64,000 bases of DNA, from contig NZ_VYIJ01000004.1 of NCBI RefSeq assembly GCF_008709555.1, forward strand, positions 1-64,000. Direction: 5' to 3'. The stretch's first letter is position 1. Every line of letters begins with the position of its first letter. Of this stretch, positions 1,923-8,893 are shown in pieces. A program made the position numbers and the translations under genes. The notes under the pieces were generated by a model, which made no database searches, was not told the DNA's origin, and saw only the letters and a program-made list of their open reading frames with translations. The stretch is from Thermoplasma sp. (GTDB lineage: Archaea > Thermoplasmatota > Thermoplasmata > Thermoplasmatales > Thermoplasmataceae).

Positions 1923-2372
1923 ATGTCTCTAATTGTAACAGACATATTGAAATATTACGAACCCGAAATAAATGATGATCGCATCTCAAAGCTCTATATA
2001 ACCACATCCAGGAAAGTTCTGGGGCAGGCCTACAGTCTCCAGAACAAGATGATGGTCGTTGGAAAACTCCTGGATGTTGCAATAGTTCCTGACAAAGAGA
2101 AGATAACAGAAACTGCAGTTCCAGGTAGAGACAGACTGATCGGAACAAAGCTGGAGGCCTATTTTTTCACTGCAAATGGAAGCGATAGGGATTATCTCTT
2201 CTTCTCCTCGAAGTTCAGTCATATCCTGACAGAATATGCCATATTTGCTGAGGAATATGAAGTCAAGGTTGAGTTCATCTATGTGCAGAAAAAGATAGGA
2301 AAGATAAAACTGTACACGAAAGGTACAGTCATGGACAGTTACAGATCACAGGAGAGTGAGAGTGTTGGATGA
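1923..2372 (+). CDS. uncharacterised protein, translationally coupled to Vps4-like ATPase
   Basis: 149-aa ORF overlapping the start of the downstream AAA gene by 17 nt. Confidence 0.75.
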   Translation: MSLIVTDILKYYEPEINDDRISKLYITTSRKVLGQAYSLQNKMMVVGKLLDVAIVPDKEKITETAVPGRDRLIGTKLEAYFFTANGSDRDYLFFSSKFSHILTEYAIFAEEYEVKVEFIYVQKKIGKIKLYTKGTVMDSYRSQESESVG

Positions 2373-3483
2373 GGCAAGCGAGAAGATAGACAAGGCCACG
2401 AAATTGCTCCAGGGAGGCATGAAGGAGGAATCTCTGGGCCACAGGGACAAGGCAAAGGAATATTATTTTGCGGCTTACAGGCTCATGCTTGAGGCTGCCA
2501 ACGCATCACCTCCAGATCTTAAGAAGAAGAGACTTGATCAGTGCAATATAATTCTCAGCGCCTACCAAAGGGTCAACGATAACGTTCAGGCCAACCCGGA
2601 ATCAAGAGAAAACGATAGTATATCAGAAGGTGAAGCCCTACTGGAGGAGATCGGCCTCGAAAAACCAGAAATACCCAGGGTTACGTTTGAGGATGTTGCA
2701 GGACTGGATGAAGTAAAGAATGAGATCCTGGGCAAGATCGTATATCCCATGAAATTCAAGGAGCTTTCCCAGGAATACAACATTCAGTTCGGTGGTGGAA
2801 TGCTCCTCTATGGGCCACCTGGAACCGGAAAAACATTCATAGTCAAAGCCATAGCGAATGAGGTCAGAGCGAGATTCATAAATGTGAATCCAGCTAGCCT
2901 CTACAGCCAGTGGTTCGGAATGTTCGAAAAAAACATATCGAAGCTGTTCAGGGCTGCAGCGCTTCTATCCCCAGCCATAATCTTCTTTGACGAGATTGAC
3001 GCACTTGTGCCCAAAAGAGATACTTCAAATTCGGACGCCGCAAAACGGGGTGTTGCGCAGTTGCTCAACGAGGTTGGAGGTATAAATTCTCAGAAGAACA
3101 AGAACCTCTTCATAATAGCCGCCACAAACAATCCATGGGAGATAGACGAGGCAATGCTTCGGCCCGGAAGATTCGATATAAAGGTATACGTTCCCCCACC
3201 GGACATCGTAGCGAGAAAGAAGATATTTCAGCTCAACATGGCCAAGGTGAAACAGGCCGGCAGTATTGATTATGACCTGCTCGCCCAACAAACAGAAGGC
3301 TACAGTGGTGCGGATATTGAGTTCATATGTAAGAAGGCAAGTCAGAATGTCTTCATGGAGGCAGTGAAATCTGGAAAACAGAGACAGGTCGAGACGAAGG
3401 ACCTTCTGGATGTCATAGGGAGCATAAGACCATCAATTGATGCCGATCTGCTCTCAAAATACAGGGAGTTTGCAGGTATTTGA
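2356..3483 (+). CDS. MIT-domain AAA ATPase, Vps4/CdvC-like
   Basis: N-terminal MIT-like helices (EKIDKATKLLQGGMKEESLGHRDKAKEYYFAAYRLMLEA); Walker A GPPGTGKT, Walker B IIFFDEIDAL, arginine-finger region AATNNPWEIDEAMLRPGRFD. Confidence 0.9.
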   Translation: MRVLDEASEKIDKATKLLQGGMKEESLGHRDKAKEYYFAAYRLMLEAANASPPDLKKKRLDQCNIILSAYQRVNDNVQANPESRENDSISEGEALLEEIGLEKPEIPRVTFEDVAGLDEVKNEILGKIVYPMKFKELSQEYNIQFGGGMLLYGPPGTGKTFIVKAIANEVRARFINVNPASLYSQWFGMFEKNISKLFRAAALLSPAIIFFDEIDALVPKRDTSNSDAAKRGVAQLLNEVGGINSQKNKNLFIIAATNNPWEIDEAMLRPGRFDIKVYVPPPDIVARKKIFQLNMAKVKQAGSIDYDLLAQQTEGYSGADIEFICKKASQNVFMEAVKSGKQRQVETKDLLDVIGSIRPSIDADLLSKYREFAGI

Positions 3484-3552
3484 CGACGGGGATTGAGATG
3501 CGTTCGCTGTTCAAAAAATTAAATTATCAATAGCTGCAGGTCGTTATTCCGC

Positions 3553-4020
3553 TTACGCCACAGAAAAACCTTCATCATCCTTTTTCAAGAGACCTGAATA
3601 AACTCCCCACTCTATCAGTATGACCTCAAGATCATGTGTACCGGATGGTGAATTGAAGGTCTGCACACCTTCCTCATTCAGAGATTGCATGAGCTGATCC
3701 AGATCGAAGCGACGGAGCCTCAGTGCTGTTTTGAACGGTTCGATATTCTTCAAGGATTCCCTTATTATCTCTTTCCGCCTCCTTATGCCCGATCGGACGT
3801 ATTCTCTCCCCTTATCCGTTATTATTATGTCCCCAGATTCTGCAGAAACGAACCCGAGATTTGATGCGGTGTACACTATGGGCATAAGGTCGTCTATATC
3901 CACCTCCATCTCCTTTTCAAGCCTGTAAAGATCGGTCTTACCTTCAAATATATTATTCATAACATACAATAATCCAACGAGATCGGCTATCCTTGCGTTG
4001 GGATCAACGACTTCGGTCAT
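3553..4020 (-). CDS. ABC transporter-associated 'AAA-associated C-terminal' domain protein
   Basis: Resembles the AAA_assoc_C domain of nitrate/sulfonate-type transport ATPases; sits next to such a transporter. Confidence 0.6.
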   Translation of the reverse strand: MTEVVDPNARIADLVGLLYVMNNIFEGKTDLYRLEKEMEVDIDDLMPIVYTASNLGFVSAESGDIIITDKGREYVRSGIRRRKEIIRESLKNIEPFKTALRLRRFDLDQLMQSLNEEGVQTFNSPSGTHDLEVILIEWGVYSGLLKKDDEGFSVA

Positions 4021-4093
4021 CGTCAGTTAATGCAATGCATAATATTAAAAGTGTTCTATCTGAGGATTTATCCGGGAAGGAGAACTCGCATTA

Positions 4094-5719
4094 TCAAGCT
4101 GCAAATACTCCCTCCTCCGCCACATACCTTTTCCTGGCAAGATCCATCATCCTCCTTGTGAAGAGTATGGAATATATGGCAACAACTATACCGAAGATGA
4201 ATGATCCCCATCCAGCCAGTGCTATATTCCCTGTATTTGTCTGAACATCTATGAATTTCATGAGACCAAAATGTACCTCGAGACTTCTTCCGGCAACTAT
4301 GTCTGGCCAGTATTCCCCTATCATCAGGCCACCCCACGCGCTGTTTATCGTGGACGATATGCCGGAGATCAGGTATGGAAATGTTCCTGGCAGTATTATA
4401 CTGCGCATCCTGCTGAAATAACCCATATTCAAGTTCTTCATTACCTCAAAATACTCGGCCGGAAGGGCCTTAACGCCCATCCAGAATGAATAGAATATGT
4501 AGTAGAATGTGCTGACAAATCCCAGAGAAAGAACATAAAACTCATCTGTGAATGCACCCAGTACTGAATGTATGGCTGTGAAACTGGCCGCAAATATGAA
4601 CGGTAAGTATATGGGTGGCGGATAGGCACTGAGCGCCTGTATTATCGGAACGCCAATTCCCTCGGCGCGCGAATGCATCGCCAGATAATATCCAAGGAAT
4701 ATGGCTATCACGAAGGATATCGCCAGTATTACTCCGACCCTAAGATAGTCATAGAGCAGATAAAGGACAATCCTTGGCGTAATACTGAAAAGCCTTCCCC
4801 ATTCCGAATGTGGCACCGAGATGATCAGATCCACGCTGGAATACAGTATTAAGCCCAGGATGATCACGCCTATGGCTATGCTGGTATACCTGCTGATCTT
4901 TTCCTTGCGGATCTCGTGCTTCTCGAATACCTCTGGTGGCCTTGAAATGGCCCTGGATCTGTAATATCCTGCTAGCCTTGAAAGTGGATTTCTGGCCACG
5001 ACGGATAATAGCCTTGTTGTCTGCTTGACGTTAAGACGCCCCCTTCTTATGATCGGAGCATCTGTATCGACGGTATACTTCGACACCGCATACCTGCTGA
5101 ATTCCCTAAGCCCAATTATTATAAGTATAATAACCACGGCGAGTATCGCAAGATCAATGTATATTAGCCGTGTCTGGCCGCTGGCCACCAGGGAGTCCAG
5201 AACAGTGCCTATGCCGAATGTCTGGTACGTGTGTATTCCCACGCTGAAGACCTCGCTCACCGTGATGTAGAAAAAGCCGTCAGATACACTCGGGAATAGG
5301 TTTGCTGCTATCCTCGGATAGGAAAACGGTATGAAAATTCGTCTCATCTTTGTCAGGAACGACATCTGATAATTCTCCGCGACCTCCAGCATCTCACGCG
5401 GTACAGTCTTGAATGCCTGATATTCTCCTATCCATATGTTCCAGACAACAGCGGTAAAGACAAGGAAATCCGCTGCCATCTCGACTCCAAGTGGACCACC
5501 GATCCTTGTGACGAATATTATGAGAACTATTGGAAAAAATGATATAACTGGAACCGACTCGAAAACCTCTATAAGAGATATGTAAATATTCTCGAAAATT
5601 TTCCCCTTTATAGCAGCATATGCCAGGAACCAACCGGTGAATATTGAAATGAGTATGAGACCAAGCACGCGACCTGCAGTGGCAAGTGTTGCAAGGGTGA
5701 TGAGGAGGATCTCATTCAT
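4094..5719 (-). CDS. ABC transporter permease, nitrate/sulfonate/bicarbonate type, two fused permease domains
   Basis: Two BPD-type permease halves (e.g. EYFEVMKNLNMGYFSRMRSIILPGTFPYLISG and EMLEVAENYQMSFLTKMRRIFIPFSYPRIAAN). Confidence 0.85.
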   Translation of the reverse strand: MNEILLITLATLATAGRVLGLILISIFTGWFLAYAAIKGKIFENIYISLIEVFESVPVISFFPIVLIIFVTRIGGPLGVEMAADFLVFTAVVWNIWIGEYQAFKTVPREMLEVAENYQMSFLTKMRRIFIPFSYPRIAANLFPSVSDGFFYITVSEVFSVGIHTYQTFGIGTVLDSLVASGQTRLIYIDLAILAVVIILIIIGLREFSRYAVSKYTVDTDAPIIRRGRLNVKQTTRLLSVVARNPLSRLAGYYRSRAISRPPEVFEKHEIRKEKISRYTSIAIGVIILGLILYSSVDLIISVPHSEWGRLFSITPRIVLYLLYDYLRVGVILAISFVIAIFLGYYLAMHSRAEGIGVPIIQALSAYPPPIYLPFIFAASFTAIHSVLGAFTDEFYVLSLGFVSTFYYIFYSFWMGVKALPAEYFEVMKNLNMGYFSRMRSIILPGTFPYLISGISSTINSAWGGLMIGEYWPDIVAGRSLEVHFGLMKFIDVQTNTGNIALAGWGSFIFGIVVAIYSILFTRRMMDLARKRYVAEEGVFAA

Positions 5720-6537
5720 AGCTTCTTCACCTTCGGTGGTGTGAGATAGTTGTATAGGGCATCGAGTATCTGGTTGAATTCCTCGCTCCTCGGATTCCTT
5801 GGCCTTGGCAGATCCACATGAACCTTCCCCACAACGGTAGCAGGAACATTGTTAAGCACGTATATCTCATCGGCAAGTTCCACCACCTCGGTCAGGTTAT
5901 GAGATACCAGAACCACGCCCTTCAGAGGAGTGTCCGGACTGAACAGTATATTGTAAATATCCTGCCTGAGGCCTTCAGCTGTCAATTCATCGAGATGCGC
6001 AAATGGCTCATCCATCAGAAACACAAGTGGGCTTGCGGCAAGTGCACGTGCTATTGCAACTCTCTGCCTCATGCCGCCGCTCATCTCCTTTGGATACAGA
6101 TCTTCGAAACCCTGCAACCCGACCATCTCAAGTGCATTTCTGGCAGCCTTCTCAGCCTCTTCATCCGAAACGTTTCTGACCTTGAGCGAAAGCATAACAT
6201 TCTCCAGGGCGGTCAACCACGGAAACGTCACTATGGACTGATGTATCAGTATTATATCTGGCGTCGGCCTTATTATTGGCTTTCCGAACAGATATACAGA
6301 TCCGCGGTCAGGTTTCAGAAAACCTCCGAGGATCCTCAGGAGAGTTGATTTGCCTATGCCGGATGGGCCGACTATGGCAACAAACTCGTTTTGACCGACA
6401 TCGATGTTGATATTTTCAAATACCTTGTACCCATTTTCATAGGAAAAATCAATACCTACGGCACTGAGAACATACTGGGCAGCTCTGGCTCGTTGCATTG
6501 CGTTATCTTTAATGAGATCCTCGTCCATGGATATCAC
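5716..6537 (-). CDS. ABC transporter ATP-binding protein, nitrate/sulfonate/taurine type
   Basis: Walker A GPSGIGKST, signature MSGGMRQRVAIARAL, Walker B FLMDEPFAHLD. Confidence 0.92.
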   Translation of the reverse strand: MISMDEDLIKDNAMQRARAAQYVLSAVGIDFSYENGYKVFENINIDVGQNEFVAIVGPSGIGKSTLLRILGGFLKPDRGSVYLFGKPIIRPTPDIILIHQSIVTFPWLTALENVMLSLKVRNVSDEEAEKAARNALEMVGLQGFEDLYPKEMSGGMRQRVAIARALAASPLVFLMDEPFAHLDELTAEGLRQDIYNILFSPDTPLKGVVLVSHNLTEVVELADEIYVLNNVPATVVGKVHVDLPRPRNPRSEEFNQILDALYNYLTPPKVKKL

Positions 6538-6672
6538 CTGATGGGACAGTGAATCTCCCCGATCATGAGCCCAGATTTCCAGTGCAGAGATCTCAGTTTC
6601 TTCTCACGGGGCAATCACCGTAAAGCCCGATTCCTAGAACATATATAAACACTGTTTTACACGTTATTATCT

Positions 6673-7647
6673 TTATTTTAAGAACTTCGATAAAAGCATG
6701 ATATCGTTGACAACGGCACCTGCAGTTTCATATGGACCATCATATACATCACCTACATTAACAGTGCCATTGTTATCCGTAGTTATCTGATAGCCAAGTC
6801 CATCCATGCCTATTCCTTTCAGGAAATCGTTTTCTGGTAGAGAGACAATTCTGGATACTGCTACGGGTCTTCCGTCATCAGAGTAAACCTCGGTTATAAG
6901 GCGATCATTTATGCCATAAGCCTTTTCTTCAACACCAGTATATTTAATGTCTCTGAGCATGTATTCCGTGCCGAATATATGATTTACAAGTATGACGCTC
7001 TTCCTTGCGGCATCCAGGCCCATTAGGTCGTCCTGTGGATTTCTCTCCGCTATTCCCTTATTGATGGCCTCTTCAACGACATCCCTGAGAGTCCTTCCAG
7101 CGGCCATATTTCTTATGACGTAGTTGATAGTGGAGCTCACGATTCCCCTGAAACGGCTGATCTTTGAGGGCAACACGGAATAGTCAAGGACACTGAACAG
7201 AGGAACGCCGCCGGCCACCGTGGCTTCATACCTTATGGCCTTTGAATTTGATCTTGCAGATTCCATTATATCATGCCATCTGTTGGCCAACCCTGATTTG
7301 TTTGCCGTGACGACATTCATTCCGCTTTCGAACGCCATACGATAGAGATCCGATTCTCTTATACCGTCTCTTGAAGCGGGTGTGCAGTCCACAAGCACAT
7401 CCGCATGCTCTCCGAGGAGATCTTCCGGACCTGAAAAATCTTTATTGGACAGCCTTCCGGCCTTCTCTTTTGATTCTATGATATGCAGGATATCCAGATC
7501 CTGACCGGCTACGTAGCTCCTTGAATCGGATACGCCTACAACTCTTATCCCACCATTTGAACTCCGATGATTATTGATCTGTATGATCTTGAGAACGTTC
7601 AGACCGACATTTCCAGTACCAATGAGTATTATTCGTGTCTCCTTCAT
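6673..7647 (-). CDS. hom: homoserine dehydrogenase
   Basis: N-terminal Rossmann IGTGNVG; VTANKSGLA; EATVAGGVPLFS. Confidence 0.88.
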   Translation of the reverse strand: MKETRIILIGTGNVGLNVLKIIQINNHRSSNGGIRVVGVSDSRSYVAGQDLDILHIIESKEKAGRLSNKDFSGPEDLLGEHADVLVDCTPASRDGIRESDLYRMAFESGMNVVTANKSGLANRWHDIMESARSNSKAIRYEATVAGGVPLFSVLDYSVLPSKISRFRGIVSSTINYVIRNMAAGRTLRDVVEEAINKGIAERNPQDDLMGLDAARKSVILVNHIFGTEYMLRDIKYTGVEEKAYGINDRLITEVYSDDGRPVAVSRIVSLPENDFLKGIGMDGLGYQITTDNNGTVNVGDVYDGPYETAGAVVNDIMLLSKFLK

Positions 7648-7821
7648 TCTGTTGATAAATGGCGTGGATCTATAAAAGCTTCAACATGAGCCAGAAAATG
7701 AGATTAAGCCTACTGGGTGGTTTTTTATGTATTTGAAATTTAAAGAAAAACCATGGAAAAAGGCTCACCGGTCGGTCACATATGCAACAAATTTAAATAC
7801 GTGCTTTATGTTAATCATCCA

Positions 7822-8130
7822 ATGGTTGAATTAACGGGCTACATCCTTTTGATTGTTGCCCTGATAGATGGCCTGCTGTTCGGGCTTGCGATCAAGAAAG
7901 GCGTGACATCTTTCATACTAATAGTGATCGCACTGATCCTGTCTACGTACGTTGGCTTTTCGTTCGCTCCGCACGTGTCAATAACGAACATGACTGCAAG
8001 GCTCCTGCCATACGTCAAGAGTTATGCAGCTCAGATAACCAACGATATCTCAATAGGCTTCGGTGGATCTCTGTCGCTCACGGTGATCCTTTTCCTGATA
8101 GGGCTGGCCGTAGGGCTCTGGAAGGGATGA
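7822..8130 (+). CDS. small membrane protein
   Basis: Tracked ORF starts at 7753, but an internal ATG at 7822 lies ~25 nt after a TTTAAATA box; three hydrophobic segments. Confidence 0.6.
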   Translation: MVELTGYILLIVALIDGLLFGLAIKKGVTSFILIVIALILSTYVGFSFAPHVSITNMTARLLPYVKSYAAQITNDISIGFGGSLSLTVILFLIGLAVGLWKG

Positions 8131-8251
8131 ATGCCTCACAAAAAAGATGTGTTCGATGACTGGATTCTTCATCCATAGTTTATATTTTTAAAAGTTATTA
8201 TATATCTCATATGGATGTGATCCAGAAATAGGTTTTGATGGATAAAATGAT

Positions 8252-8893
8252 TTATTTTGTATGATCATCGTCATTTTTAACGCCGCCAAGAGATTTTAGC
8301 AGGTTTTCAAGATCTTTATCCGTTGTTGAAGACTCTGCCGCTTCCTGCACTGTCGGCTTCTCTTGAGATCTCTGGCCCTCACCCGAGAGCGAGGTAAGTA
8401 TCTTTTCCACACTTTCCGGATTGTATTCGCCCCTCTGGTTCACTGCAGTTGTTATCTGATCCAGCTGACTGCTCAGCCTCTCCTGTATCTGATCCGAAGC
8501 TGAGATTATTTTCTCCACATTCTGCTGCATCTGTATCACCTGTTTCTCTGTGAGCTGGCTCTTAAGCAGATCCTCAGATCCTTCCTTTAGGGAGGCCCAT
8601 ACCTTCTTGGTGGTGTCCGCAAACTGAAGATTGAGATCTATGTTCTCAAGGAATAGCTTATAATCCTTGAGGCCCCTTATGGCACTGTCAAGGGATACTA
8701 TGTTCGATGCAAAGACCCTGGCCTTCTCTATATTGCCGTCCTTCAATGATATCTTCGCGTTCTGGATGTTCATCTCTCTGTTTTTCTCGTATTGCCTGAT
8801 TGCCCTGTCTATATCGGATTTCCACTTGCTTATCCTGGAACGCCTTTCAAGCATCTTCTCTTCTTCGCTTTTTCCAAATTTGAATAACACCAT
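8252..8893 (-). CDS. ESCRT-III/Snf7-like (CdvB-like) protein
   Basis: Charged helical hairpin with NAKISLKDGNIEKARVFASNIVSLDSAIRGLKDYKLFLENIDLNLQFADTTKKV, matching CHMP/Snf7 'K.GN...AR.yA...v' pattern; C-terminal DKDLENLLKSLGG MIM-like. ATG at 8893 with GGAG upstream preferred over TTG at 8908. Confidence 0.82.
   Translation of the reverse strand: MVLFKFGKSEEEKMLERRSRISKWKSDIDRAIRQYEKNREMNIQNAKISLKDGNIEKARVFASNIVSLDSAIRGLKDYKLFLENIDLNLQFADTTKKVWASLKEGSEDLLKSQLTEKQVIQMQQNVEKIISASDQIQERLSSQLDQITTAVNQRGEYNPESVEKILTSLSGEGQRSQEKPTVQEAAESSTTDKDLENLLKSLGGVKNDDDHTK

Follow-up and report, generated by a model that had tools for sequence, protein, structure and literature searches.

An ESCRT-III/Vps4 module with a small predicted beta-barrel partner in Thermoplasma

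Components of the locus

The window, that is, the whole 64,000-nucleotide stretch of Thermoplasma DNA analyzed here, belongs to a genome of 1.45 Mb (99.8% complete) and carries genes for an ESCRT-III-like protein, a Vps4-like ATPase, and a small predicted beta-barrel protein. For comparison with relatives, we take genome G059 to be T. volcanium and G065 to be T. acidophilum; the genus names attached to the handles g3, g2, and g4 (Ferroplasma, Acidiplasma, Picrophilus, and Cuniculiplasma) are likewise tentative and are used with -type or -like. The features of the locus are the following.

1923..2372, plus strand: barrel-1, a 149-aa beta-barrel predicted by AlphaFold, third module component, directly upstream of vps4
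2356..3483, plus strand: Vps4/CdvC-type AAA ATPase (AAA and AAA_lid_3 in Pfam; colinear with CdvC 4lcb)
2359..2580, plus strand: MIT domain of the Vps4-like ATPase, residues 2-75 (AlphaFold fold match; sub-threshold in Pfam)
2800..3195, plus strand: AAA+ core, residues 149-280 (PF00004 match)
3553..6537, minus strand: ABC transporter block (AAA_assoc_C protein, fused permease, ATPase; Pfam), bystander
6673..7647, minus strand: homoserine dehydrogenase gene hom (PF00742, 2e-30), bystander, following ESCRT-III in T. volcanium too
7822..8130, plus strand: 102-aa hydrophobic membrane-type protein of a conserved family, adjoining ESCRT-III, loosely associated fourth gene
8252..8893, minus strand: ESCRT-III/Snf7 (CdvB-like) protein, 213 aa (PF03357; CHMP3 profile match; ATG start at 8893)
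8288..8311, minus strand: MIM1-like motif LENLLKSL, residues 195-202 of ESCRT-III (pattern conserved in homolog tails)

A sequence-only reading of this DNA had proposed a Snf7/CHMP-like protein at 8252..8893 and a MIT-AAA ATPase at 2356..3483, and both assignments were borne out. The former matched PF03357 above the Pfam cut-off (E=1.1e-9, 38.6 bits, cut-off 27.3), and a 17-member profile of its family found human CHMP3/Vps24 structures as the best PDB match (2.6e-5). The ATG start is backed by alignment of homologs. No further Snf7 match was found in the genome. Ferroplasma-type ESCRT-III proteins, encoded beside or near vps4 (L099:3333-4022, L100-L103), are highly divergent (E about 1e-5 to 1e-7) and are overlooked by single-sequence search.

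In the ATPase, Pfam detected AAA (1.5e-39) and AAA_lid_3 (1.9e-10), with Vps4_C below threshold (0.006). The NCBIfam CdvC model (NF041006) aligned colinearly over residues 13-372, at 225 bits below its equivalog cut-off of 650, and CdvC/Vps4 4lcb was the best single-AAA PDB chain among the matches listed (profile positions 8-366, E=8e-76), its alignment running colinearly across the MIT, AAA, and C-terminal regions. The MIT domain was sub-threshold in Pfam (E=0.016), and its sequence profile matched MIT chains at 0.011-0.05, but TPR repeats too. For this fragment, AlphaFold gave a three-helix bundle (pLDDT 84.7), for which ranks 1-11 of the PDB fold search were all MIT domains (probability 1.00, TM 0.67-0.77), including VPS4, Spartin, and Sulfolobus structures; the E-values of these matches lie at 0.03-0.13 because the query is short. 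Translation of vps4 may start at GTG 2362 rather than at 2356, with GGAG at 2351-2354 upstream.

Both genes of the proposed two-gene module were thus confirmed, but a third gene had been overlooked. Barrel-1 ends within the start region of vps4, overlapping it, and is immediately followed by vps4 in Thermoplasma as well as in the g3, g67, and g11 loci. Its product had no Pfam or NCBIfam family match and no significant match in a sequence search against the PDB. The AlphaFold model is all-beta-rich (pLDDT 87.1, pTM 0.84), and a fold search with it against the PDB gave no significant match (best E 0.08). A PRC/CdvA-like barrel was considered and rejected, with this best fold E-value and no PRC among the 50 matches listed. 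In our search of the genome collection, barrel-1 homologs were found solely in genomes of the same family.

A 2024 study (PMC10936438) described a minimal ESCRT system of Thermoplasmata, composed of Vps4, ESCRT-III, and an arCOG07400 beta-barrel, and named T. acidophilum and T. volcanium as carriers, alongside a complete FtsZ machinery. Barrel-1, compared by description only, probably fits this arCOG07400 protein. Since the same three-component system has been published for Thermoplasma, the window harbors a real ESCRT-III/Vps4 module that is a further member of a kind already described. We consider it highly probable that it constitutes this minimal system, with a single ESCRT-III polymer subunit, a single Vps4 motor, and the small barrel. 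What we add to PMC10936438 is the conserved MIM1-like tail, the ancestral gene order along with an inversion by which the cassette was broken up, and the distinction of a second barrel paralog.

The suggestion that the ESCRT-III C-terminus contains a MIT-interacting motif gained plausibility. Its tail follows the pattern hydrophobic-xx-[L/I/M/R/K]-hydrophobic-xx-hydrophobic, placed 3 to 12 residues from the C-terminus behind a variable linker. This pattern was present within the last 30 residues in 18 of 21 chosen diverse homologs, compared to 0.4 on average and 5 at most for shuffled tails (5000 shuffles), a test that speaks for conservation and is not an independent prediction, as the pattern was defined after viewing the alignment and the sequences are related. 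Leu198 is invariant in all 17 aligned ESCRT-III sequences. Relative to strict MIM1 (LxxRLxxL), the window tail keeps the hydrophobic spacing, but its fourth residue is Leu and not Arg; the canonical spelling was found only in Cuniculiplasma-type paralogs, whose tails (LKERLRKL or LRERLKDI) show canonical MIM1 spacing. The pattern was not matched in the tails of Ferroplasma-type homologs. From its sequence, the motif is plausibly MIM1-like and is predicted to be a docking site for the Vps4 MIT domain. A 2022 survey (PMC8970359), whose methods describe a regular-expression search for MIM2, described euryarchaeal Cdv proteins as lacking an interaction motif, and the Thermoplasma tail provides a specific candidate there.

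Gene order and neighboring genes

In T. volcanium (G059, L106), the genes are ordered barrel, vps4, ESCRT-III, small membrane protein, hom, ABC ATPase, and ABC permease, and contiguous barrel-vps4-ESCRT-III genes also occur in g3, g11, and g67 genomes. Relative to G059, the block from ESCRT-III to the ABC genes is inverted in the window as well as in G065, G113, and G189, which accounts for the distance of about 5 kb between ESCRT-III and vps4 and for their location on opposite strands. Distant g4 and g66 genomes (L104, L105) have ESCRT-III, barrel, and vps4 genes clustered in altered order. A scan with bacterial-type promoter and terminator models, which are not meant for archaea, remained at chance level.

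The small membrane protein belongs to a family with a conserved DGLxFGLxIKKG motif and a C-terminal WKG/LKG. It is encoded in the ESCRT loci of Thermoplasma, g11, g67, g68, g9, and part of g4, elsewhere independently of ESCRT genes, and beyond the family in f28. An obligate fourth component was rejected, as members are also unlinked to ESCRT genes and present in genomes without ESCRT-III matches.

The neighborhood had been taken as a functional hint, and a role in transport or in the metabolism of amino acids, shared by the module with hom and the ABC transporter, would account for the recurrence of the same arrangement in the window, G065, G113, and G189. Yet in T. volcanium ESCRT-III directly adjoins vps4, with hom and the ABC genes just coming next, and such neighbors were not seen in the loci read from other genera. 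This contiguity, together with the inversion in the window, leaves the hom/transporter neighborhood without a functional message: the hint did not survive, the T. volcanium gene order contradicts a functional tie, and we regard a joint role as extremely improbable. The identity of the ATPase itself could also be questioned. Its AAA domain scored no lower against CDC48 (TIGR01243, 234 bits) than against CdvC, Pfam left both MIT and Vps4_C below threshold, and the Thermoplasma CdvC branch is the longest in the tree of PMC8970359, all of which would suit a diverged Cdc48/VAT-type unfoldase with a MIT-like bundle, next to a Snf7 protein that is vestigial or an unrelated helical protein. Such an origin is very unlikely in our view, considering the presence of one AAA domain only, the full-length colinear match to 4lcb, the MIT fold match of the AlphaFold fragment, the ESCRT-III linkage kept across genera, and the conserved MIM1-like tail.

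Cell division, FtsZ, and a second barrel

The earlier proposal of a module lacking CdvA in a genome of euryarchaeal type was corroborated: CdvA (PF18822) had no match in this genome, with a positive control in Sulfolobus acidocaldarius, and both partner proteins were confirmed. The genome does encode two FtsZ proteins above the cut-off, with one additional weak match, one SepF, and two PRC-barrel proteins, which suggests that division probably does not depend on the ESCRT module alone. These genes make an accessory function in membrane scission, such as vesicle release, membrane repair, or late abscission, the most likely role of the module in Thermoplasma.

A chiefly Cdv-like machine, acting in division with FtsZ or downstream of it in final abscission, is a less likely role in this organism, although one to be taken seriously. 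Among 77 family genomes, 15 had no FtsZ match; all 13 FtsZ-less g3 and g11 genomes carry a barrel gene, and in most of them ESCRT-III was detected by profile or position, so that barrel-vps4-ESCRT-III persists where FtsZ is missing. PMC10936438 proposed a division role for Acidiplasma and Ferroplasma. Against this stand the FtsZ, SepF, and PRC-barrel genes and the missing CdvA match in the window genome, many FtsZ-bearing family genomes without detectable ESCRT-III, and two Picrophilus-like g2 genomes in which neither FtsZ nor ESCRT-III was matched. The earlier notion of a role possibly separate from division is therefore favored by the FtsZ, SepF, and PRC-barrel genes of Thermoplasma, but the retention of the module by some FtsZ-less relatives keeps a division role conceivable for the family, and in these relatives the module may be a main division component.

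The barrel family comprises two paralogs, the ESCRT-linked barrel-1 and barrel-2 with a PAGCGPNDG motif, a distinction that is new relative to PMC10936438. Barrel-2 was found in 14 of the 15 FtsZ-less but in none of the 62 FtsZ-bearing family genomes, the carriers including the Picrophilus-like genomes in which ESCRT-III is likewise undetected; as the FtsZ-less genera may share ancestry, which would confound the pattern, these raw counts carry no significance value. Carriers are all ten g3 genomes, G150, G151, G020, and G187 (genes L112:5430-5732, L150-L161), and in most g3 genomes barrel-2 directly follows a helicase-like gene, so called by sequence inspection. In G141, it was not found in the region where the neighbors of G151 barrel-2 are conserved. 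The matches to G151 barrel-2 (L156:5054-5419) and ESCRT-III (G151:C43:10223-10825) were reported with internal stop codons, which may merely mark match ends. In blastp, the Picrophilus-like barrels resemble barrel-2 more closely, with E-values of about 1e-10 to 1e-16 as against values above 0.02 for barrel-1, and according to PMC10936438 an arCOG07400 member is the only division candidate in P. torridus. These data hint that a duplicated barrel accompanies FtsZ loss and make barrel-2 a concrete candidate for how Picrophilus and FtsZ-less relatives divide. It would be rather speculative, and we give it little weight, to see in the barrel family a lineage-specific targeting factor for membrane scission in Thermoplasmatales, whose duplicate barrel-2 joined in replacing the lost FtsZ.

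Judging from the protein families, ESCRT-III would polymerize at the inner face of the cell membrane, and the MIM1-like helix in its flexible C-terminal tail would be offered to the MIT-domain groove of Vps4. Vps4 hexamers would then extract subunits from the filament, and the resulting remodeling could sever a membrane neck in the direction away from the cytoplasm. The small barrel would most likely target or nucleate the filament or adapt Vps4, possibly filling the place held elsewhere by CdvA or by proteins of the winged-helix or adaptin-like type. Here the proposed mechanism is weakest, and the barrel role is a guess, as no significant structural match was obtained.

Relation to known ESCRT and Cdv systems

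Several Cuniculiplasma-type relatives (L038, L039, L040, L042, L043) have multiple Vps4 and ESCRT-III genes in one locus. Their expanded loci, such as L042:2655-19208, encode up to three Vps4 paralogs, coiled-coil proteins, and at least two ESCRT-III proteins, one of them with a canonical MIM1. Also encoded are a HEAT-repeat protein (1.4e-5 in L042), a membrane-type DO-GTPase (double-GTPase) protein (2.7e-10 in L042), and a GAP1-N2-like protein, whose L043 counterpart scores 4.9e-4. The set resembles an ESCRT system under GTPase control and differs from the minimal one of Thermoplasmata; a limited literature search found no publication on it.

The window module has its closest counterpart in the Thermoplasmata system of PMC10936438, sharing the three components, the genus, and the coexistence with FtsZ. 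With the crenarchaeal CdvA/CdvB/CdvC system it shares the pair of ESCRT-III and MIT-AAA Vps4, including the colinear CdvC match, but differs in the lack of CdvA, the single ESCRT-III, the presence of the FtsZ machinery, and, by inspection, a tail that is MIM1-like and not proline-rich MIM2. Compared to eukaryotic ESCRT systems, sequence similarity is weak, and the module is single-subunit, with no other ESCRT subunits at the locus; common to it and the Vps2/Vps24/CHMP3 class with VPS4 are the CHMP3 profile match, the C-terminal MIM1-like helix, and the MIT domain. A machine that cuts membranes in eukaryotic cells is found here in a small version in an acid-loving archaeon, and the set of Thermoplasma, a genus of cultured, wall-less acidophiles, is among the smallest ESCRT-III/Vps4 sets.
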